Positions 45,341-64,000 of a DNA stretch of 64,000 bases are shown one piece after another. The notes under the pieces were generated by a model. The model was not told the DNA's origin and made no database searches. It was given only the letters and a program-made list of their open reading frames with translations. A program made the position numbers and the translations under genes. This DNA comes from an uncultured Bacteroidales bacterium (GTDB lineage Bacteria; Bacteroidota; Bacteroidia; Bacteroidales; Muribaculaceae): NCBI GenBank assembly GCA_902776435.1, contig CACYQB010000008.1, positions 37,217 to 101,216 on the forward strand, in the 5' to 3' direction. Numbering within the stretch: position 1 is the stretch's first letter; every line of letters begins with the position of its first letter.

Positions 45341-45398
45341 CACCAATAACACAGTTCAGTATTAAGAGATTGCGAATATAATCAAAATGTAAAGCTAT

Positions 45399-45998
45399 AT
45401 GGAAAGTCAAATAACAAGAGAGGCAGCTTGGGAGCTGCTGAGAAAATATAACAAAGATCCGTTTCACCTGCAGCATGCGTTGACGGTGGAAGGTGTCATG
45501 CGCTGGTATGCTGGGCAACTTGGGTTTGCCAACGAAGTGGATTTCTGGGGCATCGTAGGACTGCTGCACGACATCGATTTTGAGCAGTATCCTGAGAAGC
45601 ATTGCATCAAAGCGCCAGAACTGCTGCGTGCAGGGGGTGTGGGCGAAGAAATGATTCACGCCATCTGCAGTCACGCTTACGGCTTGCACGTGGATGTGAA
45701 GCCTGAACACTTGATGGAGAAGGTGCTCTTCGCTACCGATGAACTGACTGGACTGATATGGGCAGCTGCACTGATGCGCCCGTCGAAGAGCGTCCAGGAC
45801 ATGGAACTGAAATCTCTCAAGAAGAAGTACAAGACAAAAGCATTTGCTGCCGGCTGTTCCCGCGAGGTGATTGAGCAGGGAGCGGAAATGCTGGGATGGC
45901 CCTTAGACGAGCTACTGCAAAAGACTCTCGACGCCATGAGGGACTGTGAAGCCCGGGTAGCAACTGAGATGGACGTCCTCCTTAATGGCAATGGATAA
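45399..45998 (+). CDS. HD-domain phosphohydrolase
   Basis: A 199-residue HDIG-type protein. The HD motif is WGIVGLLHDIDFEQYP (His-Asp near residue 57), preceded by QHALTVEGVMRWYAG (first metal His) and followed by ICSHAYGLH. Such proteins hydrolyse phosphates of nucleotides or similar compounds using two metal ions. It stands alone after GH97. The substrate is not predictable. Confidence 0.8.
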   Translation: MESQITREAAWELLRKYNKDPFHLQHALTVEGVMRWYAGQLGFANEVDFWGIVGLLHDIDFEQYPEKHCIKAPELLRAGGVGEEMIHAICSHAYGLHVDVKPEHLMEKVLFATDELTGLIWAAALMRPSKSVQDMELKSLKKKYKTKAFAAGCSREVIEQGAEMLGWPLDELLQKTLDAMRDCEARVATEMDVLLNGNG

Positions 45999-46232
45999 GT
46001 GTTCTCCCACTAAACCAGACGACAACACACGTTGACAAACAACAAGGGCAGCTATTTATGATTTTAGTTGTCTTTTGTTGATTAATTATTATAATTATCT
46101 GAAAAACAATAAATTAATAGAATAACTATTTCGGAAACTTTAACCGAATTTAGCAGAAAAAATTCTTTTGTTCGCTGATTTTTATTGACCTTTGCCGTCA
46201 ACGGTTTATAACTATTATTGAACGAAAGGAAT

Positions 46233-47057
46233 ATGATTACCAACTTTGAGACCAACAAAGTTTATTTTGCACAGGGATTAAGTTCAGCAGTATTTGAGAA
46301 TGCAGCCAATTCCTTAGTCTCTGCGTTTCATGACTCTCATGTTAATTGGGCCAAAATTCCGTGCACTCATTCACCACAACATATTTGGGTTCGAGACTAT
46401 ATGCCTGTTCAGGTGGGTAGGGACAGGTTTATTAAGTTTCGCTATGAGCCAGATTATTTAATGGGAAGTCCTAAGTACAAGCCGGATGTACATAGCATTC
46501 TAAGCCAACTGTGTATCGATGTCTGCTGCTCTCCCATTAATCTTGACGGCGGGAATATCATCAGTTGTGGCGACAAAGTCATAATGACAGACAAAATCTT
46601 TAAGGAGAACCCGCAGTATAGCCGCAACAGGCTAATAGAAGAACTGACTGAGTTTTTGGAAGCTGAGCTCGTTTTGATTCCCTGGGATATCTACGAAGAA
46701 TACGGGCATGCCGACGGTATGGTGCGGTATATGGGAAACGGAAATGTGCTACTCAACAATTATTGCGATTTTGATAAAGCCCTACACAAGAAACTGCTAG
46801 CTGCGTTGAGTCCCCATTTCAACATCACAGAACTACATTATGACACTTTCACCGACATGAGTTGGGCATACCTCAACTTCCTGCACATGGGCCATCAGAT
46901 TTTCATCCCGTTGATCGACGACAGACTCGGCGAGAAAGCATTCAGACAGATCGCTGAAGCCTTCCCCAACTGCCATTGCCACCCAGTACAAAATTGTGAA
47001 AGTATCGTCAATGAAGGCGGTGCATTAAATTGCTGTACCTGGAATATTCTGACCTAG
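46233..47057 (+). CDS. Agmatine deiminase-family protein (Porphyromonas-type)
   Basis: A 274-residue amidinotransferase-fold enzyme. Visible active-site regions are WVRDYMPVQVG near residue 52, NLDGGNIISCGDKVIMTDK near residue 107, YGHADGMVRYMGNGNVLLNN (His and Asp) near residue 160, and GGALNCCTWN at the end with the catalytic Cys. The family converts agmatine or peptidyl-arginine to N-carbamoylputrescine or citrulline. I chose ATG 46233 because it has AAAGGA upstream; the longer frame would need TTG. Its AT-richer codons mark the start of the accessory region. Confidence 0.82.
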   Translation: MITNFETNKVYFAQGLSSAVFENAANSLVSAFHDSHVNWAKIPCTHSPQHIWVRDYMPVQVGRDRFIKFRYEPDYLMGSPKYKPDVHSILSQLCIDVCCSPINLDGGNIISCGDKVIMTDKIFKENPQYSRNRLIEELTEFLEAELVLIPWDIYEEYGHADGMVRYMGNGNVLLNNYCDFDKALHKKLLAALSPHFNITELHYDTFTDMSWAYLNFLHMGHQIFIPLIDDRLGEKAFRQIAEAFPNCHCHPVQNCESIVNEGGALNCCTWNILT

Positions 47058-47135
47058 ATAGTTGTATAACAGTCGCAGAAAAGGAAACAAAAGGCTCGCT
47101 CAAAAAAGATGCAGAGTCTTTTGCGCTTAATCTCA

Positions 47136-47915
47136 TTATCGGTTAAGAAAAAGATATTTATATTGTTCTTGGCCATTAAATATCCCGGCAACTTTATATC
47201 CGTTTTCCCATTCGATTCCTCTTAAATAGTATCTGTATTCTGCATTCAGATAATCACAGAAGGAGTTGAAAAGATTAACATCTTGTTCTAGATAGTCACC
47301 ATCTTTGGAAACGAGTTTTTTATACTCTTTCAATATAGTTTTGAATTTTGTTTCTACTTTACCCTTGATGGCATTCTGGTATTTTTCTTTATCATCACGT
47401 CCTTCCTGTAATTCTAATTCACTCTTAGAGACATTAAAAGCTATGTATCGTTGAGACGAACAGATTTCCACATCACCAAACTTTGTGGTTTCGACAATCA
47501 CTGGTGTGAGGTTATTGTTATTATCAAAAGCATCCAGAACATCAAAAAGTTCATTAACACATTTTTGTGGTCCACAAATTGTTTTTATATAATTCCAGCC
47601 CCCGTCATATTTTCTTATACTTCTAATTAATATGCCTCCGAATTGAATTGGTTCACTATTTTGATTGCTTTTAATGGTCAAATCAACACCGCTCTGATGA
47701 AAGAACCATTGTTTTTCTAAGCAAGTTCTTGGATACGTTATGATATCCCGATGATTGGGTCCATAATAATAAAACTCAATCTCAGCAATCTGATAATAGG
47801 CATCTTTTTTCTTAACACAATAGCGGCCCATTAACATCCTGGCGCATTCCTCTAGAATACTCTTATTCAAATGATTGCTTTCTATATGTTGGTAAAAATT
47901 AAATATATTATCCAT
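47136..47915 (-). CDS. Divergent 3-methyladenine DNA glycosylase-like protein (uncertain)
   Basis: A 259-residue protein of AT-rich codon use. I do not recognise it with certainty. The order of motifs follows Mpg/AAG glycosylases: CARMLMGRYCVKKKD, then IAEIEFYYYGPNH (where Mpg has its catalytic Glu), an RT...KQWFF stretch, GGILIRSIRKYDGGW, and ICGPQKCVNELFDVL. These segments match the fold's landmarks (lesion pocket, RN.MF, LLRA, GP). The C-terminal 90 residues are helical and charged and are not part of Mpg. It lies directly next to a repeat box of the cassette region. Confidence 0.45.
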   Translation of the reverse strand: MDNIFNFYQHIESNHLNKSILEECARMLMGRYCVKKKDAYYQIAEIEFYYYGPNHRDIITYPRTCLEKQWFFHQSGVDLTIKSNQNSEPIQFGGILIRSIRKYDGGWNYIKTICGPQKCVNELFDVLDAFDNNNNLTPVIVETTKFGDVEICSSQRYIAFNVSKSELELQEGRDDKEKYQNAIKGKVETKFKTILKEYKKLVSKDGDYLEQDVNLFNSFCDYLNAEYRYYLRGIEWENGYKVAGIFNGQEQYKYLFLNR

Positions 47916-47931
47916 GACTTTATTCTTTCAC

Positions 47932-48057
47932 TTGCCGATGCATAAGATTAAACTAATTGATTATCAGGGCTCATGCTCTTTACTATAGAAATATGGCAGA
48001 GTTGCATAGTATAAATCTAAAGCCCCACATTTATAACACTTATGACTTTGTTTAACG
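47932..48057. repeat. 126-bp border box A (downstream side of ATPase 2)
   Basis: Shares its left end TTGCCGATGCA, the middle TTGATTAT and (A/C)AAATATGG(C/T)AGAGTT-type segments, and its right end (GTTTAACG) with boxes B and C. It is the most divergent of the three. It lies 26 bp past the ATPase 2 stop codon and 16 bp before the start of the glycosylase-like gene. Confidence 0.8.
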
Positions 48058-48083
48058 CTGAGAATCAAAGCGTTCTGCTCATT

Positions 48084-49415
48084 TCAAAGGAATGGTGTCA
48101 TGTAAACAGGAAGCAGAAGCGTTTCCTCATCTTTTTTCAAATCCTTTGTGTAGATCAGATAACGCCGTTCAACGACGTGGGAATATTTCTGACAAAAAAC
48201 ATCCAGCGACTTATGAGATTTGTAACCTGAAGATTTGACTTCAATTGGGTGTAACTTGGCGCCTCGTGAGAGCAGAAAATCTATCTCATAATAATGGGTT
48301 TCGTCCTTTGGCCAGGTGTAATAGAACAGTTTGTTACCTGATGCTGTCAGCACCTGTGCTATCATGTTCTCATAGACGTAACCCAGATTGGTGCTTAGTT
48401 TATCATTTAAAAGTTTCTGATAGATGATATTCTCGGTATGGTCCTTGTCCCAGAATGCGAGAGTGACGAAAATTCCTGTGTCAGCACAAAATATCTTGAA
48501 CTTTGAACGATCCTTAGTCAATGACATGCCAACGTTTGGCTCGTTGGAATGATAGGAAAAAAGAGCAGTCTTGCTGTCTTCAAGGTCCTTCAGAAGTTCA
48601 ACCAGTTTCTCGTCATTGACATCGCCAAGCACGGTATATGGCTTATAACGATTGCTGACTTGGCTTAACTGAGACGGAATCTCCATAAAGAGTGTCTCTA
48701 GGCGTCCTGTTTCATCAAGCTTTTGAAAGTCTTCTTGATAAACTTTAATGATGCCACGCTTCACATGATCCACCATACTGAAATTGTTAGTTTCAATATA
48801 TTCATTCACGGCTTGTGGCATACCACCCACCAACATATAAAGTCTAAAGTCACGCATCTTGTCTCGATGGGCTCTTTCCAACGGGAGCCGCCTTTCATAA
48901 AAAGTGTGGAGCAGGGGCACCGTTGCTTCGTCACCCAAAGCCCATCGGAACTCTTCATAGTCCATCGGATATAGCGTCACTCGCTCCTCCTCGCTGGGTA
49001 TAGTGATGTTCTTTGTATTCTTCTTGATACTAATGAGAGAACCCGTCTCAATGTAATCATAGCGGCCATCTTTTACAAGATACTTTATTGCTTGCCGGGC
49101 TGGTGGGCATTTTTGCACCTCATCAAAGATGATGACCGACTTACGCTCTCTGAGCACAACATTATATAAGGCTTGCAATTGCAAAAAGATGAAATCTTTG
49201 TTCATGAGATTGTTGAACAAGGATTTCACTTCATCGGATGCTTCGTTGAAGTCAATAAGGATATAGGACTCATATTCATTCTTTGCGAACTGTTCAACAA
49301 GTGTTGACTTGCCCACACGACGTGCCCCTTCTATCAAGATAGCCGATTTGCCATTCTGCACTCGTTTCCACTCGAGAAGGCGATCATAAAGCTTTCGTTT
49401 GAATACTCTCTCCAT
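48084..49415 (-). CDS. AAA_14/DUF4143 ATPase 2
   Basis: A 443-residue ATPase. Walker A is ILIEGARRVGKSTLV (Gly30-Ser37), Walker B is KSVIIFDEVQKCPPARQAIK near residue 100, and the middle has YDYIETGSLISIKKN and YPMDYEEFRWALGD. The DUF4143 C-terminal part includes HYYEIDFLLSRGAKLHPIEV (a nuclease-fold-like ELD/ExK pattern). The ATG at 49415 is preferred over 49445 because a promoter lies at 49443-49474. It is similar along its whole length to ATPase 3 but only distantly to ATPase 1. It sits inside the first cassette-like module. Confidence 0.88.
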   Translation of the reverse strand: MERVFKRKLYDRLLEWKRVQNGKSAILIEGARRVGKSTLVEQFAKNEYESYILIDFNEASDEVKSLFNNLMNKDFIFLQLQALYNVVLRERKSVIIFDEVQKCPPARQAIKYLVKDGRYDYIETGSLISIKKNTKNITIPSEEERVTLYPMDYEEFRWALGDEATVPLLHTFYERRLPLERAHRDKMRDFRLYMLVGGMPQAVNEYIETNNFSMVDHVKRGIIKVYQEDFQKLDETGRLETLFMEIPSQLSQVSNRYKPYTVLGDVNDEKLVELLKDLEDSKTALFSYHSNEPNVGMSLTKDRSKFKIFCADTGIFVTLAFWDKDHTENIIYQKLLNDKLSTNLGYVYENMIAQVLTASGNKLFYYTWPKDETHYYEIDFLLSRGAKLHPIEVKSSGYKSHKSLDVFCQKYSHVVERRYLIYTKDLKKDEETLLLPVYMTPFL

Positions 49416-49442
49416 AATCGTTACGATGCCTGATTTCGAGTG

Positions 49443-49474
49443 CAAATGTAGTGTATTGATTTAAATTACGCAAA
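49443..49474 (-). promoter_or_regulatory. Promoter of ATPase 2
   Basis: On the minus strand, TTTG (49471-49474), a 20-bp spacer, then TACATTTG (49443-49450). Confidence 0.75.
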
Positions 49475-49490
49475 TGTTTATGTTAGAAAT

Positions 49491-49543
49491 ATCCGAAAAT
49501 ACCGAAATTATCGTTTTGAAAACATCCGAAAATACCGAAATTA
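49491..49543. repeat. 33-bp repeats upstream of ATPase 2
   Basis: Units start at 49491 and 49524 (33-bp period; the second is cut after about 20 bp). Core AATACCGAAATTAT. The array ends one base before box B. Confidence 0.75.
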
Positions 49544-49544
49544 T

Positions 49545-49671
49545 TTGCCGATGCAGAAGATGCAACTTATTGATTATCAGATATTTATAAATTAAACGGT
49601 ACAAATATGGTAGAGTTTTGCAGTGCCAATTTCAAACCCTTCATTTTTAACACTTTTGACTTAGTTTAACG
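49545..49671. repeat. 127-bp border box B (downstream side of rhuM)
   Basis: Nearly the same as box C over its full length (shared stretches include AAACGGTACAAATATGGTAG and TTAACACTTTTGACT). It abuts the 33-bp repeats of the neighbouring ATPase 2 module, with the rhuM stop codon 93 bp away on the other side. Confidence 0.85.
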
Positions 49672-49763
49672 GATAAACAATGGACTAATGTAAGAAGATG
49701 GTTTGCTCTTGTTGTTTTCAGCATCTTAGTTAATGCCTTTTTGCCCCCAAAACGCTATAAGAA

Positions 49764-50780
49764 TTATTTCCCACCATCGTCGCCACCATCGTCACCTTCG
49801 CCCTGTTCGAGCATGCCCCTGATGCGCTTATCAAAGTCTGAGTCAATGCGCTGCGTTCGGTTAAAGATGTCGTACTCGCGCTCAGCCTTGTCTTTTGCCT
49901 GCTTAGCGGACACGCTTCCCTTGTCTGGAAGTATTTCATATCGCCTAAAAGCGAGGAACTCGTTGACGCTGGCTGCGAACTGTTCCATGTTGAATGTGTT
50001 TTCACGCTCGATAAGGTCTTCGATGTAGTCGAAATAGCCTGAGACTGCTCGCTCGAGCTGGCGGATCTCTTTCTCGGTCAGGTAGTTTTTTGCCACCGAC
50101 ACGTCAGACTTAAGGATGCGCCCATCGGGGGAGTTCTTCCATGTGGTCAAACCCATGTGCTCCTTAGCGTGGTCTGCCTTGGTGTAGATTATTTCGGCAG
50201 CCGTCTGCCCAGTGATGGCATAATGAAAGCGATTCTGAACCATGGCATAAAATTCTCGTGTTGTAGGCGAATTCCTGTCATAGTCGGTGCTGCACTCGGC
50301 ATAGATGTCCGTTATTTGCTGCCAGATCCTGCGCTCGCTGGCGCGGATGGAACGCACCCTCTCCAGCAACTCGCGGAAGTAGTCTTTGCCGAACACAGCG
50401 ATTCCCTGTTTCAACCTATCGTCGTCAAGTACGAATCCCTTGCGGATATACTCATTGAGTATCTTGGTGGCCCACTGGCGAAATCTGGTCGCTCTAAGTG
50501 AGGACACGCGGTAGCCTACAGCGATAATGGCGTCAAGACTATAAAAGGCTACTGGCTTGTCGGAATTTGCAATTTGCATTTTTTGCAAACTGCTTTTTTC
50601 ATCCAGCTCACCACTATCAAAGATATTACTCAAATGACGGGAAATGCCGGAAGTATCTACCCCGAAGAGTTGTGACATCGCCTTCTGTGTGCACCAGATA
50701 GTGTCGTCCTTGATTACCACTTGGACTTTACCATCATCCTCGGGCAGGTTGTATAACAAAAACTGTATTTCGTTGCTCAT
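49764..50780 (-). CDS. RhuM-family protein
   Basis: A 338-residue protein of the virulence RhuM family. It starts MSNEIQFLLYNLPEDDGKVQ; the DNA-binding-like region is TIWCTQKAMSQLFGVDTSGI, then VGYRVSSLRATRFRQWATKI (near residue 95) is the family's signature. The tail is rich in Glu, Asp and Gly. The function is unsettled; it is common on pathogenicity and defence islands. The start at 50780 agrees with the promoter at 50823-50853, which rules out the upstream ATG at 50852. The gene is the cargo of the second cassette-like module. Confidence 0.85.
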   Translation of the reverse strand: MSNEIQFLLYNLPEDDGKVQVVIKDDTIWCTQKAMSQLFGVDTSGISRHLSNIFDSGELDEKSSLQKMQIANSDKPVAFYSLDAIIAVGYRVSSLRATRFRQWATKILNEYIRKGFVLDDDRLKQGIAVFGKDYFRELLERVRSIRASERRIWQQITDIYAECSTDYDRNSPTTREFYAMVQNRFHYAITGQTAAEIIYTKADHAKEHMGLTTWKNSPDGRILKSDVSVAKNYLTEKEIRQLERAVSGYFDYIEDLIERENTFNMEQFAASVNEFLAFRRYEILPDKGSVSAKQAKDKAEREYDIFNRTQRIDSDFDKRIRGMLEQGEGDDGGDDGGK

Positions 50781-50822
50781 GTCTCTGTAATATAATAGTT
50801 TTATTACGCTTCTTTCGTTGCA

Positions 50823-50853
50823 CAAATGTAACAATAAAATCCCAAATATCAAA
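50823..50853 (-). promoter_or_regulatory. Promoter of rhuM
   Basis: On the minus strand, TTTG (50850-50853), a 19-bp spacer, then TACATTTG (50823-50830). The surrounding 60 bp is about 90% identical, by eye, to the ATPase 3 promoter region. Confidence 0.75.
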
Positions 50854-50887
50854 GGAAAAGTGCAGAATTGCCGAAATTCTCAAAAAA
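50823..50887. repeat. 5' border shared by rhuM and ATPase 3 (copy 1)
   Basis: About 65 bp from the -7 box to GCCGAAATTCTCAAA. It closely matches 53956-54020. It has one unit of the 33-bp repeat family. Confidence 0.8.
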
Positions 50888-51137
50888 ACAAATCATCGCC
50901 TTGATGGTCGTTGGCAAAAAAATGATGAACAGATTGCGTCGACAGCATCGACACAATTAACTGAAATAAGTAAGTCAAAAATATAATAATATGACATTCT
51001 TTCGTTATTTATTTGCGTAGTTGGACAAAAAATGTCTATTTCTGCAAACGAAATAATGAACACATAATAATGACATCTTCTCTATTTCTAAATCACCTCA
51101 TAATACTCCTTAAGACGTTAGATAACTTGCGACAACA

Positions 51138-51153
51138 TTCATGATATCATGAA
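51138..51153. promoter_or_regulatory. 16-bp palindrome upstream of 51227 gene
   Basis: TTCATGATATCATGAA is perfectly palindromic, about 40 bp before the -7 box at 51193. It is a possible operator; the binding protein is unknown. Confidence 0.35.
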
Positions 51154-51192
51154 CTTTTTTATTCTCCATGCTTAAAATCAGCGTTATTTTTG

Positions 51193-51200
51193 TACTTTTG
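51193..51200 (+). promoter_or_regulatory. -7 promoter box for the 51227 gene
   Basis: TACTTTTG lies 26 bp before the ATG at 51227. Confidence 0.5.
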
Positions 51201-51226
51201 CGCGACAACATCTTAACCAAATTATT

Positions 51227-51619
51227 ATGGAACTTTCTAAAGCAGATAAGCGGCTATGCCGTGAACTCATCAATACGGGTATCGAACGGGAATGCAAGCG
51301 TTTTGTAGAACAGATTCAGCGAATTGCCTGCGAACCGATTCCTCCCGAGCAACTCAACGAACCATATCGTGAGGAGAATGGTCAAAGCATCGAACGAGTG
51401 TGGCACAAACGCTTCATCAAGTTGTTTAGAGCCACCGACAAGTTTAATCATCACGTTGCACTCCGCTATGACCATGCCACGGGCTCACACTACCTCGATT
51501 GTGTGGAGGGCCTATATTTGGACAAATGGTTGACGGATGAAGAAATCTCCCGTTTCAGCGACGAACCGCGGGATTACATCACCAGTCTTGGATCGTTTTA
51601 CTCAAACGATTCCAACTGA
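51227..51619 (+). CDS. Hypothetical protein, 130 residues
   Basis: I do not recognise this family. The protein is polar and probably helical at the start (SKADKRLCRELINTGIEREC), with a later HHVALRYDHATGSHYLDCVE stretch that may form strands. It has no signal peptide or membrane segment. A promoter box precedes it, and a DUF6155 gene follows 64 bp later on the same strand. It lies between two of the cassette-like modules and could be an accessory passenger. Confidence 0.65.
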   Translation: MELSKADKRLCRELINTGIERECKRFVEQIQRIACEPIPPEQLNEPYREENGQSIERVWHKRFIKLFRATDKFNHHVALRYDHATGSHYLDCVEGLYLDKWLTDEEISRFSDEPRDYITSLGSFYSNDSN

Positions 51620-51683
51620 CTTCAATACAATTCATGTTTTTTGTACTCAGAAGCATTTTTGAAAAACTCCAATTGAAATAGAA

Positions 51684-52208
51684 ATGTCAAAATTAGAAGT
51701 CAAGAAGTATATCAAGTCGCTGGTGCGCAGTTCATTGGAGGAGTTGGTGATGGACTTGTATTCGGCTCGCAAAGAGGCGAAAGATTATCTGGAGTATGTG
51801 ATTAAACCAGACGATAATGCAAAACTGGAAGAGTATAGAAGAATCATTCATAATGAGTTCTTTCCAAGTCGTGGCGAGCCAAAATTGAGGTTTTCGGTCT
51901 GCCGTAAAGCGGTGTCAGAATTCAAGTCACTCGATCCTCTTCCCGAGTTGTTGGCCGACTTGATGCTCAGCATTCCGGAATATGCCAGTCAAATTGCTGA
52001 TGAGTATGGAGACATGTGGGAACAGTTTTACGATGCAGCCGAGAACAATTTCAAGACCGCCATGAAGTTTATAAGCCAACACCATCTTCAAAGTCATTTC
52101 CAGCAACGGATAGACACAATTCTGCATAATTGCGAGTCATCCGGCTGGGGATTCCCTGACACAATGTGGGATATCTATTATGATTATTCAGATATGCCAG
52201 AGGAATAG
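51684..52208 (+). CDS. DUF6155 family protein
   Basis: A 174-residue helical, acidic protein that fits the DUF6155 family (SKLEVKKYIKSLVRSSLEEL at the start, VMDLYSARKEAKDYLEYVIK next, and SGWGFPDTMWDIYYDYSDMP at the end). The function of the family is not known to me. No signal peptide or membrane segment. It may be co-transcribed with the preceding gene. Confidence 0.75.
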   Translation: MSKLEVKKYIKSLVRSSLEELVMDLYSARKEAKDYLEYVIKPDDNAKLEEYRRIIHNEFFPSRGEPKLRFSVCRKAVSEFKSLDPLPELLADLMLSIPEYASQIADEYGDMWEQFYDAAENNFKTAMKFISQHHLQSHFQQRIDTILHNCESSGWGFPDTMWDIYYDYSDMPEE

Positions 52209-52564
52209 AATGGTTGACCGCAAAATGCGTTGTATTAGTAAGTTGAATGATGTCTAGTGTTATTTTTCCAACGAAATTAGATTGTTCTCATGTTGTTTTT
52301 TAAGGAAAAACGATATTAAAACTAATATAATTGCAATAAAGCTGCATAAATATTTATTTGCCGATGCAGAAAATGCAACTAATTGATTATTAGATATTTA
52401 TATATTAAACGGTACAAATATGGTAGAGTTTTGAAGTACAACTTTCAAAGCCTTCACATTTAACACTTTTGACTAAGTTTAACGATCGAAATGAGTCAAA
52501 AACGGGGATTTTGACCATCATCTTAATCATATCGGAATAGTATCAAATCTATAAGCTGATTGCA
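52209..52564. other. AT-rich intergenic region with border box C
   Basis: No gene seen. Apart from box C (52358-52484) the stretch has no recognisable feature. Confidence 0.55.
52358..52484. repeat. 127-bp border box C (downstream side of ATPase 3)
   Basis: Almost the same as box B and related to box A. It lies 80 bp past the ATPase 3 stop codon on the minus strand. Confidence 0.85.
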
Positions 52565-53932
52565 CTAAAGAAACATTGCCATATACATTGGCAACATTAT
52601 CAAGTCCCGCTCTTTCCGAATGTCCTTCGAATGAAGGAGGTATCGTTGAAGGATGCGGGCCGAGAACTTCTTCTGGAATTCATTAATGGAAACATGAAGA
52701 TTGGATGTCGATGACTTGACTTCTATCGGGCAGATTTTAGCTTTACGGGACAACAAGAAGTCTATCTCGTAGTTATGTTTGCCCGATGGTGTCGGCCACG
52801 TATGGTAATACAACTTATTCCCAGTGGCTGTCAGAATCTGTGACACCACGTTCTCGTATACATAGCCCACATCAGCCTTCAGTTTATCGCTCAACAATTT
52901 TTGGTAAATGACATTCTCTGTAAATTTATCGTCCCAGAAAGCGAGAGTGACAAATAGTCCTGTATCTCCGCAAAACAATTTGAACTGGTCGCGGTTGATG
53001 TGTGATGCCAATCCTGCACTTGGGTCGTTGGCATGATAAGCTATATTGACGGTCATGGAATCTTTGAGGATATTTATTTGATCTCTCAGACGTTCCAGTT
53101 TCCCTCCTGTAATCACGCTACTTACCTTATAGCGAGAGGCATTGCTGTTTAGTTGGGATGGGATGGCATGAAACAAATCTGAGGTCTGCCCTGATGGATC
53201 CAATTCGTAGAAATCCTCATCGTAGAGGTCAAGGATGCTGCGCTTGCGCTGGTCAACAATACTCAAATCGTGTGTGTCAATATAGTCGTTGACAGCCTGG
53301 GGCATGCCTCCAACCAAAACATATAGACGGAAATCGCGCATCATACGACGATTTGTATCATCACTCAGTAGACTTAAATTGTTGAACATTGTACGCAAAA
53401 GGGGAATAGTTTGGTCATCTCCCAATGCCCAACGAAACTCTTCATAGTCCATGGGGTACATATCAAGGCGCGTTTCCTCACTGGGAATGAGAATGTTTTT
53501 CTGTTGCTCGGAGTTGCCAGCTGACTTCCTTTTACGCTTGATGCTCAACAGAGACCCAGTCTCAATATAATCGTAACGACCATCGGCCACAAGTGTTTTA
53601 ATGGCTTGCCGGGCTAATGGCTGCTTCTGTATTTCATCAAAGATGATGACAGACTTGCGTGGCTTCAGGCTTTTTCGATAGTTAAGTTGCAGTTGCGTGA
53701 AGATGTAGTCCAGATTGGAGACATCTTCAAACAAACGGTGTGTTGCTTGCGTTGCTGTTGAGAAGTCAACTAATATGTAGCTCTCGTATTCATTACGGGC
53801 AAATTGCTCGGCAACAGTGGACTTGCCGACACGCCTTGCACCCCTGATAAGAAGTGCGGTTGTCCCGTGCTGATTTTGCTTCCAACTCAGCATTTGCTCA
53901 TATATTTTGCGTCTGAAAATTCTTTCTGCCAT
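52565..53932 (-). CDS. AAA_14/DUF4143 ATPase 3
   Basis: A 455-residue paralogue of ATPase 2. Walker A is LLIRGARRVGKSTVA (Gly31-Ser38), Walker B is KSVIIFDEIQKQPLARQAIK, and the shared YDYIETGSLLSIKRK and YPMDYEEFRWALGDDQTIPL follow. The nuclease-like end is HNYEIDFLLSRKAKICPIEV. The ATG at 53932 is chosen because the promoter at 53956-53986 excludes the upstream start. The function is unknown; ATPases of this family are very numerous in Bacteroidales. It is the cargo of the third cassette-like module. Confidence 0.88.
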   Translation of the reverse strand: MAERIFRRKIYEQMLSWKQNQHGTTALLIRGARRVGKSTVAEQFARNEYESYILVDFSTATQATHRLFEDVSNLDYIFTQLQLNYRKSLKPRKSVIIFDEIQKQPLARQAIKTLVADGRYDYIETGSLLSIKRKRKSAGNSEQQKNILIPSEETRLDMYPMDYEEFRWALGDDQTIPLLRTMFNNLSLLSDDTNRRMMRDFRLYVLVGGMPQAVNDYIDTHDLSIVDQRKRSILDLYDEDFYELDPSGQTSDLFHAIPSQLNSNASRYKVSSVITGGKLERLRDQINILKDSMTVNIAYHANDPSAGLASHINRDQFKLFCGDTGLFVTLAFWDDKFTENVIYQKLLSDKLKADVGYVYENVVSQILTATGNKLYYHTWPTPSGKHNYEIDFLLSRKAKICPIEVKSSTSNLHVSINEFQKKFSARILQRYLLHSKDIRKERDLIMLPMYMAMFL

Positions 53933-53955
53933 TTTCCTCTTTGTATTATCAGGTG

Positions 53956-53986
53956 CAAATGTAACCATAAAATCCCAAATATCAAA
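53956..53986 (-). promoter_or_regulatory. Promoter of ATPase 3
   Basis: On the minus strand, TTTG (53983-53986), a 19-bp spacer, then TACATTTG (53956-53963). Confidence 0.75.
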
Positions 53987-54020
53987 GGAAATGTGCAGAA
54001 AATGCCGAAATTCTCAAAGG
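53956..54020. repeat. 5' border shared by rhuM and ATPase 3 (copy 2)
   Basis: Matches 50823-50887 over about 60 bp: the promoter, then ATAAAATCCCAAATATCAAA, then GCCGAAATTCTCAAA. Confidence 0.8.
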
Positions 54021-54100
54021 TTGAATACTGAAAAATGCCGAAATTCTCAAAGGTTGAATACTGAAAAATGCCGAAATTCTCAAAAATTGAATACTTTATT
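54002..54100. repeat. Three 33-bp tandem repeats upstream of ATPase 3
   Basis: Units start at 54002, 54035 and 54068. Each begins ATGCCGAAATTCTCAAA; the first two are identical, and the third diverges near its end. Confidence 0.9.
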
Positions 54101-54153
54101 ATATCTTTGCCTTCAGCAGTTCTATCATCAGTTCGATATTAGATTCAAAGAGT

Positions 54154-55110
54154 CTAATCATGCGCAATATTATTAAAGTATTGTACAATTGTTTTTTCAA
54201 TAAATGTTTCTAAAGATTTAGGTACACGGGCTCTTGGTGCTATTGTTTCCATAATATCATTCTCATTCAATGTACGTCCTTTATTAGTTTTATTAATGTG
54301 CATCGTAGAACAATCGTTATGAATTGAATTACAAAACAATATAAAGAAAACAGCGAAGTACTTACCTCTCACAATTTGATGAACCAAAGACTTTTCTTTC
54401 AGTTCAGACATAACAATCTCCATTTTGGATTTATCGTACATAGAATAGTCAACTTGACTATCTTTGTATAATTTCTTTATTATTTCGTCTTGGGATCCAA
54501 TTTGAGTTAATATACCATTTTTTACATTGAATAATTGCCTAATTTTCAAATTTTTATAATTTGCAGGTTTTATATTGTTTTGTTTCCATACTATGATATT
54601 TGCCATTATTGGCAACATTCTATTATCAAAATCATTCAATTGCTGATTGTACAAGTTCTTAATTGAGCTTAATTCATCCGTGGGAGTAGAGCAAAAGCCT
54701 AATATATCTTGCAAAACAGATTCTAAAGTATCCTCATTAAGGATATCATTCTCTATAGAATAATTATCGGTAATATAAACGTAAGGGTCATTAATTATAT
54801 TAGTATCGTTTATTATACAAGATAAATCTCTGTCCATAAAATAGACGATCTTTTCAATTGGATATTTTCTATTCCGTATTTCTTCATACACATACTTTAC
54901 AACTTCTTTTCCGTCTGATGGATATAGAATAACAGAACAATCTTTGTCTATTTTTTGTTTAATAGTTGTTCTGTAATATGATGGGTCATCTTTCCCTTCA
55001 ACAAAGCCATAACAAACTTTAGAAGAGTCTTTCTTGAAATCAGTATAGAATCTTGAAAGAGGAACTGTTTTTCCATTTCTTTCAAGCCTTAAAAGGTCTG
55101 CTATTCCCAT
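54154..55110 (-). CDS. DUF4435 TOPRIM-fold protein (PARIS AriB-like)
   Basis: A 318-residue protein with the DUF4435/TOPRIM pattern: CYGFVEGKDDPSYYRTTI (Glu38), IEKIVYFMDRDLSC (Asp93, Asp95), and YVYITDNYSIENDILNEDTL, whose SIEN segment is typical of DUF4435. In PARIS the AriB protein is a toxin nuclease kept inactive by AriA until a phage anti-restriction protein releases it. It follows AriA by 4 bp on the same strand. I chose ATG 55110 because upstream in-frame starts overlap ariA; 55140 is the alternative. Confidence 0.82.
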   Translation of the reverse strand: MGIADLLRLERNGKTVPLSRFYTDFKKDSSKVCYGFVEGKDDPSYYRTTIKQKIDKDCSVILYPSDGKEVVKYVYEEIRNRKYPIEKIVYFMDRDLSCIINDTNIINDPYVYITDNYSIENDILNEDTLESVLQDILGFCSTPTDELSSIKNLYNQQLNDFDNRMLPIMANIIVWKQNNIKPANYKNLKIRQLFNVKNGILTQIGSQDEIIKKLYKDSQVDYSMYDKSKMEIVMSELKEKSLVHQIVRGKYFAVFFILFCNSIHNDCSTMHINKTNKGRTLNENDIMETIAPRARVPKSLETFIEKTIVQYFNNIAHD

Positions 55111-55114
55111 AATG

Positions 55115-56485
55115 TTATTCCCTAAATTCTTCGATTCCATGCGCGTATTTATCCAAACTATTATCAAAAATAAAAGGAGAATGTGTCACGGCAATCAAAC
55201 CGTTACAGAAAGCACCTTTTCTGACATCTTCCAAGAAAGTTTTTTGCCATTTTACAGATAGAGACAGCTCTGGTTCATCAATTAAAACTAGGTAATCATG
55301 TTTATTTGTCAGATACAAATGACTGAACAATGAAACAATTTGTTTTTCTCCAGAAGACAATTGAAAGAGTTTTATGTCATGATCATCATAATTGGATGTA
55401 ATGCTAAACTCAAAAGTTGGACTATCATATTTCATGGATTTATTCTGTAAATAACTATTACATACATCTACAAAATCTCTAATTGATGTCTCTTTTTGAT
55501 TTAATTCTTTATGCGATTCATATAATTTAAGGAAATAGTGACAAACGACCTTATCGTGTTCAGACTGAATATCTCTATCTTTAATATTTTGTAATGTATT
55601 GAATAATTTCTTTTTCCGTTCTTCAGAAAGAATGGTATCATCAACTCTATTCATGATTTGATGAATTGTTTCCTCATCAATAGAAGCGATTTCCTTGGCA
55701 TTAATGGATTCGTATTTTTTATCAACAATATCTCCCAAATACCCAAGTGTCAAATCATTAAGATTTGTTCTTGAAGAATCCTTCAGATTGGTTAATGTGT
55801 TATTTATTGCCTCATCAACATCACGCATACCAAATTCTATGAGTTCTGTATAGTTGTTGTACTCATGCATATGCCTTATTCTACGACTTCTAAAATCATC
55901 TTCATCAATTCTTCCATCAAGAACAACTCTCAATTCTTGTTCTATTCGCCTATATGTCGGCAAATACAGGACATGAATATTCTCAACTTTTTTCCTAATA
56001 TCTTGTAATGATTTCAATAATTGGTTTCGCCTGTTTTTCTTATTACTTGTTTTTGAGAATAAGTCAGGATTTTCTTCAATACTCAGTTCTTGGAGTATAT
56101 ACTCAACGGGAATGTCATAGTGTTTACATATCATTTCTAGTCTTTCAATATCAATCCTGTTATCTCTTTCAAGCATGTTTTGAATGGCTCTTCTTACAGG
56201 AAGTGGTGATCTCCGTAATGATATATCATCAAGAGCTACAGAAGAATTAATAATGTCTTTTTTAGCAATCTTGTACTTTTCTGTATCAATGTATACTTCA
56301 ATACTTTCAAAATTGTATCGACTCAATTTTCCCCATTGTAACGACAATGTGTAATACAACATTTTAATAATAGTCGTTTTACAAGAACCGTTTTCACCTA
56401 ATAATATTAGGGTGTTGTTTTCAAACTTCAACTCGAAATTTAAAGTCTCATGTAGCTTGTTAATCTTAAAACTTTTTATTTCCAT
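55115..56485 (-). CDS. ABC-type AAA ATPase (PARIS AriA-like)
   Basis: A 456-residue ATPase, close to the length of AriA. Walker A is LILLGENGSCKTTII (residues 30-38), the ABC signature is QLSSGEKQIVSLF (near residue 385), Walker B is YLVLIDEPELSLS, and the switch His is in IAVTHSPFIFD. The last Gly of the P-loop is replaced by Cys (GENGSCKTT), an unusual change. Between them lies a long helical insert, as in OLD/RecF-type ATPases. In PARIS this protein forms a cage that holds AriB and senses phage anti-restriction proteins. The AriB-like gene follows immediately. Confidence 0.82.
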   Translation of the reverse strand: MEIKSFKINKLHETLNFELKFENNTLILLGENGSCKTTIIKMLYYTLSLQWGKLSRYNFESIEVYIDTEKYKIAKKDIINSSVALDDISLRRSPLPVRRAIQNMLERDNRIDIERLEMICKHYDIPVEYILQELSIEENPDLFSKTSNKKNRRNQLLKSLQDIRKKVENIHVLYLPTYRRIEQELRVVLDGRIDEDDFRSRRIRHMHEYNNYTELIEFGMRDVDEAINNTLTNLKDSSRTNLNDLTLGYLGDIVDKKYESINAKEIASIDEETIHQIMNRVDDTILSEERKKKLFNTLQNIKDRDIQSEHDKVVCHYFLKLYESHKELNQKETSIRDFVDVCNSYLQNKSMKYDSPTFEFSITSNYDDHDIKLFQLSSGEKQIVSLFSHLYLTNKHDYLVLIDEPELSLSVKWQKTFLEDVRKGAFCNGLIAVTHSPFIFDNSLDKYAHGIEEFRE

Positions 56486-56595: not shown

Positions 56596-56937
56596 TTATT
56601 TGCCCTTGATTAAAAAATCAATTAACTTTGAAGCCCGTTCTTTTGTAATGCCCTCAAACTGTTTTATTAAAATCTCCACAAGTTCATCAATTGTTGGATT
56701 AATTCTTGTATCAGACTCCTGCAAACCAATTGGATTAATTACGGATAAATTCTTATTTTGAGGAGCGATGCTAATCTGAAGCAGATCAGAAAGAACTCCA
56801 TTGACTATAGAATCAACATCTTCAGTAGGGCAACCGGCATTAAGCGCTAGCTGATTGAGAACTGCGACCTGACATATGCCAGGATGAGTACTGATAAAAC
56901 CTTCAACTGGTTCGAAAAAATGTGATGGATGAATCAT
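56596..56937 (-). CDS. Small protein, last gene of the GTPase operon (possible adaptor)
   Basis: A 113-residue protein, helical, with no signal peptide. Its N-terminal half (MIHPSHFFEPVEGFISTHPG then VLNQLALNAGCPTEDVDSIV) could be a winged-helix or small alpha-beta fold, and the tail is a charged helix (TKERASKLIDFLIKGK). I do not recognise it surely. Double-GTPase systems often carry a small adaptor domain protein, and position (10 bp after the GAP1 gene) makes that a fair guess. Confidence 0.6.
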   Translation of the reverse strand: MIHPSHFFEPVEGFISTHPGICQVAVLNQLALNAGCPTEDVDSIVNGVLSDLLQISIAPQNKNLSVINPIGLQESDTRINPTIDELVEILIKQFEGITKERASKLIDFLIKGK

Positions 56938-56947
56938 ATTACAATTT

Positions 56948-58915
56948 TTATAATAAATCTATCAAAGTTTTATTCAACTGCTGATCAGGAGTAAAAGACT
57001 CAATATAATTCTTTGATACTTTTAGTGCCTTTAATCGTTCAACAACTCCTTTTCTGAGTTTCTTACATTTATCCCATTCTTGCCATGGCAAAACACTGCC
57101 TGTATACGACCTTATTTTATCCCAACTACTCCAACTGAGAGCACTTTTAGCTGCCAACTGATATATTGGGTAGAATGCCTTTTTTAGATAAGCTAAGGCA
57201 ATTGCATCATTCCAATTATATGATAGCAAGAAAAGGAATGTATAGTACTTATCAGGACCGTCATAAGAACTATTTGCAAATGCTTTCCAAGCAGAACTTG
57301 AGCTTTGTTTTACGTCTATAGAATTTGGAGAGACATTCGTCATAATAAATTCAACAACAACTTTATTTAATGAATCGCGTCCATTCATCCAATCTGCAAT
57401 CTGATCAAAATGAGTAAAACAATAAACACGTAAGCTATTATCCAATATATATTGAACACTAGCACTAAGATATTCCATAACAAGATATACCAGATCAGGT
57501 ACAACAGAAATGAAACGATCCTTCATCGTTTCATCAATATGATAATGCTTATACAATACTACTAAGAATAACTTATCCCACTTATCGAAATAAATATTAC
57601 TGTTCTTCTGGAAGATCTCATATGTTGATAAGAACCTGTCCTCTGGAAAATCAACCCATATAGATACAGATAGTAATTGAGGGCATAAAGTCACCAATGA
57701 TATGTAAGTTGGCCAATCCTGTGATGATATTTTAACCAAATCATCCAATTGAAGAAACTTGTATGAATTTTCTAAGGTTCTTTTGCCATACTGATTGAAA
57801 TAATCTTTTTGCAACAAATTTGATAAGAGACGAATGTATGAGTCCTTATCTTCACGGGCATGTCTAATTACGCGTTGTTCAAATTCGTTGAGACTATAAT
57901 CAAGAGATTGTGATGCTTTAAATGTGGCAATGTCAAGAAGTATATTTTCCTCGCTGTCGAACACCCTAGACACGCGTTCGCTCATGAAAGATTTTTTTAC
58001 GTTCAATCCCTCACCACTAGGAAATGACTCTGCTATAATTGACAATATGTCCTTGTAGCGTAAGGCAGACGAATCCGCAGACATAGCCTTATCCAAACAT
58101 TCTGATAAGTAAGCTACGGAACATAATTTAGAAATACTACTGCCAATATCTCCAGAGAATAATCGCAAGAACTTTGGCATACCTTTGTCATTATTCAGAA
58201 TTGCATGGCCCAGTGATCTTATTCCTTCATTGAAATTGGATGTCTCTAATCCTCCTACATCATTCGCAGTTAATAAAGGAACTGAATTGTGATTCGCAAA
58301 CTGTAATGAGGATTTAACTCTTGGGAAATGACGTCCTGATGCTGAACCTGAGCAAAAAGCTACTCTTGCTAAGATGCCTACAGGAAGATACTGTACAAGG
58401 CACAAACATAGATTCTGATAGAAATCGGATGAGCGCTCTATAGCAAAACATCTGGATGATTGTAGAAGTTGAACAAGTATATACATTATTTGCACCTGGG
58501 AGATCTGATTGCTTGCAAGAAAGCCCGCATCCATATGAGATTGATCACCAGATAGTTCAAATGCATAATTATAGTTGTGATGGCTGTCATTATTAGGTCG
58601 TTGAAAGAGAGGTAACAGTTGACGGAAATCAAAATTAGTTTCCAAATTTTCCAAATCAACAAGGAATGTGTGCGTCCACACACACCCAGGGCGAGGCATC
58701 TCATTGGCATACCAACTCTTAGCAATAGCATAATATTTGCCATCGGGGAGGGGATAGCCCATAATATAAGAACTATCACCATTCGCATCACCACTATACT
58801 CTGTCCAATCGCTCATCACTTTTAACAAGTCGTCATCAATACTTGGTAGTGTTAATGACGAAGCCAAAAGAGTGTGCCCTTGGTTATAGCCGTGTAGTGC
58901 CTGATGAATGATCAT
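56948..58915 (-). CDS. GAP1-type GTPase-associated protein
   Basis: A 655-residue protein. The N-terminus, MIIHQALHGYNQGHTLLASS, then SDWTEYSGDANGDSSYIMGY and MPRPGCVWTHTFLVDLENLE, is the GAP1-N1 pattern described for bacterial GTPase-linked conflict systems. The rest is long and helical and would correspond to the GAP1 middle and C-terminal parts. It probably acts on the two GTPases encoded upstream, but the mechanism is not established. It lies 9 bp after the first GTPase gene. Confidence 0.8.
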   Translation of the reverse strand: MIIHQALHGYNQGHTLLASSLTLPSIDDDLLKVMSDWTEYSGDANGDSSYIMGYPLPDGKYYAIAKSWYANEMPRPGCVWTHTFLVDLENLETNFDFRQLLPLFQRPNNDSHHNYNYAFELSGDQSHMDAGFLASNQISQVQIMYILVQLLQSSRCFAIERSSDFYQNLCLCLVQYLPVGILARVAFCSGSASGRHFPRVKSSLQFANHNSVPLLTANDVGGLETSNFNEGIRSLGHAILNNDKGMPKFLRLFSGDIGSSISKLCSVAYLSECLDKAMSADSSALRYKDILSIIAESFPSGEGLNVKKSFMSERVSRVFDSEENILLDIATFKASQSLDYSLNEFEQRVIRHAREDKDSYIRLLSNLLQKDYFNQYGKRTLENSYKFLQLDDLVKISSQDWPTYISLVTLCPQLLSVSIWVDFPEDRFLSTYEIFQKNSNIYFDKWDKLFLVVLYKHYHIDETMKDRFISVVPDLVYLVMEYLSASVQYILDNSLRVYCFTHFDQIADWMNGRDSLNKVVVEFIMTNVSPNSIDVKQSSSSAWKAFANSSYDGPDKYYTFLFLLSYNWNDAIALAYLKKAFYPIYQLAAKSALSWSSWDKIRSYTGSVLPWQEWDKCKKLRKGVVERLKALKVSKNYIESFTPDQQLNKTLIDLL

Positions 58916-58924
58916 ATTATCAAG

Positions 58925-59713
58925 TTAAATCAGTGAACTCAAAGGAAGTGTCAAGTCATATGACTTAATGCCATCTTCAGTAACAACGAATGAACGTTGC
59001 CCGTTTTCGGTTTTCTCGATAAGTGATTCCACATTTTCAGTAGAATAAATATCTCCTTGAGCACTAATACCAAACAATTTTGCATCAGGAAAATACCTCT
59101 TGATAAAATTGTTCATGAATCTTGAATTCTGCTTAAGATACTCACGCGGATTGGAATAATCATTCTGATACACATCCCACGCTGTGAAACAAATAGCGAG
59201 TTTCTTCCAAGGAAAGAGGTTGTGTAGTTCTTTCAAGATTAGAACATTCTGTACTTCATTTGAAATGTCCTTCATATCAAATGATGGTAGTTTTGTGTCC
59301 TTTATTGTATCATCATTTTGAAATTGATCAGCAAAAACAGATGAATTAAGGTCCTTTATAAACAGCATCAATGAGTCTGGTTCGCTATCCCAGTCTTTAA
59401 TAAGTTGAGACTGTTTTTGGACAATAGCCTGAAAGTTCTCTCCGGCTATATCGGGAAGGGATACAGAAATGACATTTCCATCGGTATTGCGCTTAAGGCT
59501 TAGCTCAATGTTTGTGGCTCCGCCAATTTGCGTTCTATCAACTTCCTTGATGCTTAGCCATGGTTGCTGGAGTCTATTGAGATAAGAAAAGTCTGCAGGG
59601 ATTTCAGCAAATGAAAGAGCTTGGCCCTCAACAGGATTACTCAGTAGATAAGACAGAGCTCCGATAAATGTGGTTTTACCAGTACTTGGCATGCCTGCTA
59701 TTAAACACTTCAT
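58925..59713 (-). CDS. TRAFAC-type GTPase of a double-GTPase system
   Basis: A 262-residue GTPase. P-loop is IAGMPSTGKTTFIGAL (Gly7-Thr14), the DxxG switch is SLPDIAGENFQAIV, and the base-recognition region is CFTAWDVYQ (TAWD in place of NKxD). G5 is probably GISAQG. Fold and context match the double-GTPase group: it is encoded 2 bp after a second GTPase and 9 bp before GAP1. The final Asp/Leu-rich stretch may contact GAP1. Confidence 0.82.
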   Translation of the reverse strand: MKCLIAGMPSTGKTTFIGALSYLLSNPVEGQALSFAEIPADFSYLNRLQQPWLSIKEVDRTQIGGATNIELSLKRNTDGNVISVSLPDIAGENFQAIVQKQSQLIKDWDSEPDSLMLFIKDLNSSVFADQFQNDDTIKDTKLPSFDMKDISNEVQNVLILKELHNLFPWKKLAICFTAWDVYQNDYSNPREYLKQNSRFMNNFIKRYFPDAKLFGISAQGDIYSTENVESLIEKTENGQRSFVVTEDGIKSYDLTLPLSSLI

Positions 59714-59715
59714 AG

Positions 59716-61550: not shown

Positions 61551-61554
61551 AAAA

Positions 61555-63870: not shown

Positions 63871-64000
63871 TTATTTGAGTGATTTTTGATATTCCTCCTG
63901 GTATGGTCGAATGAAGTCGTCAAGCGAGGTGATGCCCATCTTCCTGGCTATCTTTTTCTTCTTGTTCGAGATGGTGACGACATTGTTGAACCTCATGCAG
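63871..64000 (-). CDS. Partial gene at the right edge (C-terminal end only)
   Basis: The frame is open from the right edge to the TAA at 63871 (about 43 codons visible) and reads MRFNNVVTISNKKKKIARKM then GITSLDDFIRPYQEEYQKSL. The basic stretch and charged tail suggest a nucleic-acid-binding protein, but nothing more can be said from this fragment. The start lies outside the window. Confidence 0.5.
   Translation of the reverse strand, partial: CMRFNNVVTISNKKKKIARKMGITSLDDFIRPYQEEYQKSLK

Follow-up and report, generated by a model that had tools for sequence, protein, structure and literature searches.

The three boxes that follow minus-strand genes in the window (the 64,000-nucleotide stretch of uncultured Bacteroidales DNA analysed here) are very probably attachment (att) sites, each forming the right end of an integrative cassette; such cassettes would be stacked in tandem where mnmE ends and moved by an integrase. 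We favour this reading, also for cassettes that have no integrase of their own, on comparative sequence grounds: because of a core that copies the mnmE end, swapped flanks, inserts, orientation, an integrase and the cargo. A cassette would extend from just past one 18-bp core through the end of the next box, and a tyrosine integrase would recombine the core of a circle (TTCTGCATCGGCAARTRA, the last mnmE codons) with a core at mnmE or in a resident box, with the mnmE end preserved and one core added by every insertion.

Architecture of the window

A box profile search placed three boxes of about 129 bp on the minus strand, at 47930-48057 (box 1), 49543-49671 (box 2) and 52356-52484 (box 3), 3′ of ATPase 2, rhuM and ATPase 3, respectively; the first-pass annotation of this DNA had put them downstream of the same genes, with starts correct to two bases or fewer. 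Identity is 91% between boxes 2 and 3 and 73% between boxes 1 and 2. They are the only full boxes in their own genome, where the next match by E-value is 29 bp long, and a 24-base box-edge pattern (up to three mismatches) matched twice in the window compared with zero matches in 100 shuffles.

Box 1, a diverged copy, is the putative right-end attachment region of the ATPase 2 cassette and adjoins a chromosomal flank common to a related genome, G283; its core (47928-47945, minus strand) has one mismatch to the core pattern and ends in TGA, as the same flank does in G283. The cargo, ATPase 2 (48084-49415, minus strand; AAA_14 and DUF4143; PADLOC model PDC-S01), lies between this box and the cassette's probable left end (49498-49540, minus strand), in which two TTTCGGTATTTTCGG repeats, 33 bp apart, touch the core of box 2. 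Sequence like this left end abuts mnmE in G264, G377 and G412. Box 2 would serve as the right-end attachment region of the rhuM cassette: its core, TTCTGCATCGGCAAATAA (49541-49558, minus strand), matches the mnmE end of the same genome at 17 of 18 bases, and the cargo is rhuM (49764-50780, minus strand; Virulence_RhuM; PDC-S05). The rhuM promoter and one TTTCGG repeat (50823-50883, minus strand) are common to ATPase 3, and homology to other cassettes starts or stops here. Towards the left end of the rhuM cassette, two genes on the opposite, plus strand (51227-52208) encode a 130-aa protein and a 174-aa DUF6155 protein, a pair that occurs, intact or reduced, at the same place ahead of other cargo in G403, G272 and G232.

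Box 3, the candidate right-end attachment region of the ATPase 3 element, has the core TTCTGCATCGGCAAATAA at 52354-52371; ATPase 3 (52565-53968; AAA_14 and DUF4143; PDC-S01) and, upstream of it, three 33-bp repeats of the GAATTTCGGCATTTTTC type (53999-54097) lie on the same minus strand. Also upstream is an AriB/AriA pair (54154-56485, minus strand), a PARIS-type defence system in which the AriA ATPase adjoins AriB (DUF4435); we take this pair as part of the ATPase 3 element, whose left end falls outside the window. A GAP1-type operon (56596-62811, minus strand) is spanned over nearly its whole length by a 7,366-bp match to G307 (56606-63970, 99.4% identity).

Several further claims made at first pass were borne out. 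On reading the sequence, each of ATPase 2, rhuM and ATPase 3 has a TTTG-N19/20-TACATTTG promoter upstream; the two ATPases are related, sharing both domains; and the borders of rhuM and ATPase 3 are near-identical (96% over 45 bp of promoter, besides the 91% of their boxes). The repeat AATRCCGAAATTMTC gave eight matches at up to two mismatches as against 0.6 expected, six of them upstream of the three genes, one within rhuM and one distant; copies 5′ of ATPases 2 and 3 have starts spaced 33 bp. Two details were not upheld. Boxes are not paired with repeats into a single set of borders, and upstream of several box-side ATPase clusters these repeats are missing; the TGCCGA motif said to be common to their edges belongs, in the box, to the mnmE-end copy, which on reading is absent from the repeats.

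The mnmE core and its flanks

Most boxes terminate with an 18-bp copy of the final bases of mnmE (also called trmE), a core gene for tRNA modification, reading F-C-I-G-K-stop. Box matches occur in 25 of 101 genomes of the genus, one of the 25 being the mnmE end only. Where mnmE lies on a box contig (nine genomes), all 13 boxes, counted by reading, are downstream of mnmE on the same strand. At up to two mismatches the core matched 79 times in 847,306 bases of loci, compared with about 4 expected from simulation; 36 of these matches are mnmE ends, 31 are box ends, 11 lie elsewhere on the same strand and one is on the other strand. The core is found at the 3′ edge of 31 of 37 boxes and is not recognisable in the other six, in a tally that excludes matches below 35 bits save a contig-cut box in G286. 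Short mnmE loci (L154, L170, L175, L179, L180, L182, L184, L185) and the contig-cut L181 and L183 were excluded from the locus reading and from the junction and core/box counts. Relatives show the pattern of a trmE/mnmE-targeted element, 3′-end insertion with a far-end copy of the last 18 bp; in the window's own genome mnmE and the array are not contiguous, and a link between its contigs C15 (mnmE) and C8 (array) was sought but their ends have no common 17-mer.

In other collections, box 2 had no match among phages, and a 19-base pattern matched ten viral contigs, none of which the box profile confirmed. The pattern scan of a genome collection returned 19 stretches, of which the profile confirmed 18, a Caedibacter stretch failing, and a plasmid search with the ATPase 3 module gave a single weak, partial ATPase match.

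Right flanks are interchangeable: they fall into 31 types over 66 junctions, and six types are found behind mnmE and also behind boxes. The junction table holds 23 distinct types behind boxes, with six types at the seven junctions of a single ATPase cluster. This count omits G242, whose right flank is shorter than 40 bases, and core matches at neither mnmE nor a box.

The presence/absence comparison proposed at first pass succeeds, in related species. G283 has the window arrangement minus the ATPase 2 unit, homology breaking at the end of box 1 and returning at box 2. Moreover, one chromosomal flank occurs in three states: directly beside mnmE in G040, where the flank is homologous, with an ATPase-plus-box insert of 1,837 bp in G391, and with a hipA insert of 1,705 bp in G268, G391 and G268 being 97.6% identical across 1,500 bp past the insert. 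The G040 flank may itself be an older insert, not bare chromosome, because two more cores lie 5.4 kb further on. ATPase 3 genes are 91.0-95.5% identical (full-length matches, four genomes) compared with 79.8-82.5% for the mnmE genes, which we count as evidence of transfer.

The original idea of a gene-swapping cassette is retained with a changed extent, from box edge to next box edge and not from repeat to box. As a border the box holds at the right end only, where its edge copies the mnmE 3′ end; the repeats provide left-end sequence for ATPase 2 only, those of rhuM and ATPase 3 lying in an element-internal promoter block. The opposite pattern, boxes always beside one gene family and no empty-site strains, is not what we found.

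Integrases outside the window

The window was said to contain no integrase, and none matched anywhere on its contig, C8; integrases do exist outside it: one adjoins mnmE in this genome (C15:78068-79117), and a relative, G232, carries one within its array. A 371-aa tyrosine integrase (Phage_integrase and SAM_5, with a sub-threshold arm-binding domain) has close copies in three of 101 genomes (G232, G403 and G164), far fewer than the 24 box genomes, and in all three it is the second gene behind a core; of 26 homologous places, ten are at neither mnmE nor a box. In G403 the integrase element is bounded by mnmE and a box, which is the next core, 16.2 kb on. The end of the element in G232 is uncertain because two degenerate cores without box arms, at 11812 (one mismatch) and 18403 (two mismatches), separate the integrase from the next box. 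A tyrosine integrase is likewise contained in a 389-aa-integrase element, whose right end was not found in ten stretches of eight genomes or in six other stretches. In the window's own genome, mnmE (C15) is followed by another integrase element, which encodes a topoisomerase, Mob_Pre and multi-HTH proteins, and an integrase (SAM_5/Arm-DNA-bind_5) related to the 371-aa one. This element resembles the integrative mobilizable elements of Bacteroidales, but its right end was not found.

Elements of the 371-aa type would use the same box as well as the same core, and their integrases may act on boxes generally. Many cassettes carry a single candidate anti-phage gene and lack an integrase; elements that have one and share the core would therefore mobilise them in trans. 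Cassettes would presumably circularise on the way; no excised circle was seen.

Other explanations, known systems and meaning

It is possible, but in our judgement unlikely, that the boxes merely began as att sites and that present shuffling is homologous recombination without an integrase, between boxes, promoter/repeat blocks and flanking genes. Some boxes do look mosaic by eye (the left half of the G237 box is like G203, the right half like G385), cargo varies behind one DUF6155 pair (rhuM, ATPase 3 or another ATPase), homology breaks near the promoter block and off the core, and most box genomes are without a close 371-aa integrase. Against this, right-flank switches occur at the core, including switches between mnmE and boxes, whose common sequence is little more than the core, and one and the same core serves inserts whose arms are unrelated (G268, G040). 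An immobile regulatory set of a defence regulon, with the box as 3′ element and the repeats as operators, is improbable. Such a set would fit the conserved borders of unrelated genes and the abundance of TTTCGG, which is 21 times commoner upstream of ATPase/rhuM genes than of other ORFs (mean per 300 bp, 1.39 for 28 genes versus 0.066 for 452 others), the 28 not being independent because they are related to one another. However, the terminus of the box copies the mnmE 3′ end, 23 flank types follow boxes, five of 32 readable boxes (counted by reading) lack any gene on their own strand in the 400 bp upstream, and an Rfam search of 46000-56000 gave zero matches. The repeats may be operators, which covers the upstream half only; the box/repeat regulatory pair was rejected after the edge of the box turned out to be the end of mnmE.

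A true integron, with attC gene cassettes and an integron integrase, is very improbable. The attC site is comparable in size to the ~130-bp box site, and the simplest units resemble integron cassettes in being one gene plus one recombination site of that size, in arrays and in a single orientation. Here, however, the site is mnmE-derived, the target is mnmE and not attI beside intI, and the three window genes each have their own promoter. An integron would have intI and attI beside the array as well as attC sites, but the integrases at mnmE are of phage/ICE type. The integrase has a phage-type SAM_5 domain, and its best solved-structure match, IntI4, extends over only 66 residues near the C-terminus (E 3e-07). 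The sharp edges and several copies of the box would suit a dispersing insertion element or MITE, an explanation made scarcely credible by the confinement of all three full own-genome copies to this array and by the one orientation of 13 of 13 boxes downstream of mnmE on mnmE-bearing contigs. A XerCD/dif reading was dropped after by-eye comparison with a dif sequence.

Integration at this gene is known from Salmonella genomic island 1 (SGI1), described as having a tyrosine integrase that targets the trmE 3′ end and 18-bp imperfect direct repeats, one of which is the last 18 bp of trmE, with tandem insertions reported (PMC3285670, PMC8409611). The mnmE copies at box ends resemble the repeats flanking SGI1. 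SGI1, however, is a gammaproteobacterial island of ~43 kb with int/xis and resistance genes, whereas the complete units of the window measure 1.6 and 2.8 kb, are integrase-free, carry candidate defence genes and share a ~110-bp arm within a Bacteroidales genus. CIMEs are described as having lost integration and transfer genes while keeping att sites, and ICE/IME accretion at one att site as newcomers integrating into the att sites of residents (PMC5704250). The ATPase 2 and rhuM units, each between cores, likewise have putative att sites on both sides and no integrase or transfer genes; unlike CIMEs, several units here are single genes, with one common right-end box and different neighbours in different genomes. 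Among the literature matches listed, judged by titles and the starts of abstracts, we found no mnmE/trmE-targeted Bacteroidales element, which does not imply that none is in print.

Box-side genes are mostly defence candidates, matching PADLOC models PDC-S01, PDC-S27 and PDC-S05, and may act in defence. The same three are reported among the frequent defence loci of bovine rumen genomes (PMC13356809). A literature search found no paper pairing DUF4143 with AAA_14. To these candidates the present analysis adds a probable genomic vehicle and landing site.

Tentatively, and with rather less than even confidence, we propose an integron-like system of independent origin, in which single-gene anti-phage cassettes, each terminated by an arm of ~110 bp and an 18-bp core derived from mnmE, would be moved in trans by resident elements that have an integrase and stacked behind mnmE as their common landing site. 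If such a cassette pool exists, ruminant Bacteroidales would shuffle PDC-S01, PDC-S05, PDC-S27 and other defence genes as exchangeable parts. Small mobile cassettes, mostly of single candidate anti-phage genes, would be a testable route of spread in ruminant gut bacteria: if PDC genes travel as mnmE cassettes, a single assay at one core gene, by PCR or read mapping, could follow their gain and loss, and the att site that they share would offer a simple handle for finding more cargo, which we expect to be enriched in defence genes.

Boxes that end in the 3' end of mnmE

The window (C8:37217-101216) reaches the end of its contig, in a genome assembled into 43 contigs, and carries the only full box copies of that genome, each about 129 bp long and all on the minus strand: box 1 (47930-48057) downstream of ATPase 2 (AAA_14/DUF4143), box 2 (49543-49671) downstream of rhuM, and box 3 (52356-52484) downstream of ATPase 3, a second AAA_14/DUF4143 ATPase. 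TTTCGG-type repeats spaced at 33 bp lie upstream of the box-side genes and exceed their expected frequency in the window. In an alignment of 30 boxes, most have sharp edges, CGTTAAAC on the left and TTCTGCATCGGCAARTRA on the right. The right edge is the end of mnmE: the gene of the same genome (C15:74643-76037) ends in a sequence differing from it at one letter, the codons for F-C-I-G-K and a stop. This core, counted with up to two mismatches in 847,306 bases of fetched loci, matched 79 times against about 4 expected (simulated sequence gave 7 in 1.5 Mb); 36 matches are mnmE ends, 31 are box ends, 11 lie elsewhere on the same strand and 1 on the opposite strand. The core is present in 31 of 37 boxes, the exceptions being those of G313 (6740), G164 (8017), G203 and G410 and both of G272. 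In L180, L177, L147, L087 and L188 the first core, at mnmE or another core end, is immediately followed by a variant second one (ATTCTGCGTGGGAAAGTGA type).

At E <= 1e-5, boxes were matched in 20 of 397 sampled family genomes, including this one, all within the window's genus; at E <= 0.001, 25 of 101 genomes of the genus matched, one of them (G242) over only 22 bp that are the mnmE end itself. A pattern scan of named genomes returned 19 stretches, 18 of them confirmed as boxes by profile. Eleven of the 18 come from records named RUG, which we take to be rumen MAGs, and the other sources include MAGs from roe-deer abomasum and cattle duodenum. A box cut by a contig end (L095:7717-7789) lies on a 7.8-kb contig, possibly misbinned, of a MAG labelled Eubacterium sp.

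Shuffled partners and the promoter block

We typed 66 junctions (35 mnmE ends and 31 box ends) by their next 45 bases. Flanks were clustered at a score of 16; among 2,145 shuffled pairs no score above 13 occurred. Six of the resulting 31 right-flank types (R0, R1, R2, R3, R5 and R8) are found behind mnmE as well as behind boxes. R1 stands after mnmE in G203, G409 and G301, and after a box in the window, G264, G403 and, twice, G301; R2, which consists of the TTTCGGTATTTTCGG repeats preceding ATPase 2, has mnmE before it in G264, G412 and G377 and a box before it in the window, G237 and G385; and both kinds of R8 junction occur within one genome, G095. R7 stands behind the rhuM box in G283 and behind the ATPase 2 box in the window. 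Left and right partners are therefore shuffled, with the break at the core. In G095 (L089:9963-10101, L178) a box core, and likewise the mnmE end, is joined to the interior of an ATPase 2-type gene; the intact gene shows, by eye, a short TTCTG match at the join position, perhaps a secondary site.

Related genomes differ in their inserts. Behind the insert, G391 and G268 share 97.6% identity across 1,500 bp, and their mnmE genes share 87%; the insert comprises 1,837 bp with an ATPase and box in G391, and 1,705 bp with the two parts of a HipA-type kinase and a core at its end, without a box, in G268. In G040 the homologous flank lies directly behind mnmE (82% over 1,369 bp, the alignment starting 111 bp past the core), and this flank may itself be an older insert, because two more cores occur 5.4 kb further on. 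G283 has both the flank and the rhuM unit of the window and lacks the ATPase 2 unit, its homology covering 45364-48056 at 87% and 49545-50883 at 97.7%, both running to its single full box. In the window's own genome mnmE and the array lie on separate contigs (C15 and C8). G403 holds its array on a single contig: mnmE, a 16.2-kb integrase element that has a box at its end, the DUF6155 pair followed by ATPase 3 and box, a second ATPase and box, then other genes. The interval from the ATPase 3 cassette to the adjacent box in G164 (L079:10372-11693) contains an rve-type transposase gene as well as an HTH_Tnp_1 gene.

Behind the DUF6155 pair, which is reduced in G232, stands rhuM in the window, ATPase 3 in G232 and G403, and another ATPase in G272, each ending in a box. 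Where cargo differs, homology to the window stops in or near the promoter block (at 50823 for G232 and 50930 for G272), and we infer that this block is a place of gene replacement by homologous exchange. The mosaic look of some boxes suggests that homologous recombination also contributes. Upstream of 28 ATPase and rhuM genes of this kind, which are mutually non-independent, TTTCGG has a frequency of 1.39 per 300 bp, versus 0.066 for 452 other ORFs, the signal coming chiefly from the ATPase 2/3 cluster and rhuM. These repeats, putative operators, double as the cassette left end at ATPase 2 and are internal to the element at rhuM and ATPase 3. Upstream of PDC-S27-type ATPase_2/DUF234 genes (for example in L088 and L077), repeated palindrome-like ATTTCGGGCGAAAT motifs are a different relative of them.

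Integrases and cargo

The window's contig has no Phage_integrase match. A 371-aa integrase (Phage_integrase and SAM_5 above cut-off, Arm-DNA-bind_5 below) has close copies (97-100%) in three of 101 genomes, G232, G403 and G164. In each it is encoded second after a core whose flank is R3; this core belongs to mnmE in two genomes and to a box in one. The next core after it is a box in G403; in G232 the next box lies 10.4 kb beyond, preceded by two degenerate cores without box arms; and in G164 the box at the corresponding place has lost its core. The own genome and eleven more encode a related integrase (34-36% identity) some 2 kb past mnmE, preceded by the same multi-HTH gene and with gene order largely kept where the contig continues; the own-genome element encodes a Mob_Pre protein and a topoisomerase. 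Counted by reading, 16 of 26 homologous integrase places are at an mnmE or box core and 10 at neither. We infer that either integrase acts on the box.

Cargo was read at 37 boxes. At five of them (G286, G256, G310, G351 and G095) the contig begins within 770 bp and leaves no gene to read ahead of the box. A PDC-type ATPase precedes 21 of the 32 readable boxes (including a fragment at a contig start in G301 and a G017 case with a 119-aa ORF in between), rhuM two, and an AbiEii gene, a CARF6 gene, a GAP1-type operon and a 673-aa gene one each; at five, a same-strand gene is absent within 400 bp. The ATPases have two Pfam architectures, AAA_14/DUF4143 and ATPase_2/DUF234, and PADLOC matched PDC-S01 or PDC-S27 in each cluster, with at least one member scanned per cluster; rhuM matches PDC-S05. 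PADLOC models gave no match for the 673-aa gene, a 728-aa box-side gene, the DUF6155 pair or the four GAP1-operon proteins scanned.

In G403, G272, G232 and G313 the coding DNA of ATPase 3 matches the window's at 91.0 to 95.5% identity; G164 has it in two pieces at 94-96%. The mnmE genes of these five genomes are 79.8-82.5% identical to that of the window genome, a contrast in keeping with horizontal movement. For ATPase 2 the identity is 95.0% in G377 and 87.9% in G264, whose mnmE is at 81.3%. Directly upstream of ATPase 3 lies an AriB/AriA pair, a PARIS-type defence system (54154-56485). The 7.4-kb GAP1-type operon stretch (56606-63970 versus L071:10990-18355) is 99.4% identical to G307, where nearby chromosomal stretches are only 80-85% identical to the window; the two contigs break off at the same point to within about 30 bases.

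The mnmE end as a probable site of integration

SGI1 lies at the 3' end of thdF/trmE, flanked by 18-bp imperfect repeats of which one is the last 18 bp of the gene, and at times integrates in tandem (PMC3285670, PMC8409611). CIMEs keep att sites and have neither integrase nor transfer genes, and their accretion has been described (PMC5704250). The elements described here share SGI1's kind of site, with a Bacteroidales genus as host; they depart from SGI1 and CIMEs in how large their units are and how these are built, as single candidate defence genes that have one right-end box in common.

Of 297 family genomes, 122 contain the exact core pattern. By hand count, 24 of the 76 minus-strand matches listed lie within 600 bases of a contig start, versus 3 of the 55 plus-strand matches listed within 2,000 bases; assemblies therefore tend to break just behind the core. 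Ten stretches fetched from these family matches comprise six with mnmE and four with the core elsewhere. In G130, of another genus (L202, L203), an integrase element lies behind mnmE, and a second one, in which the listed genes are the same, follows a core that adjoins an amidase gene and a 1,241-aa ORF, perhaps a prophage. These findings suggest that the mnmE end may be a family-wide landing site.
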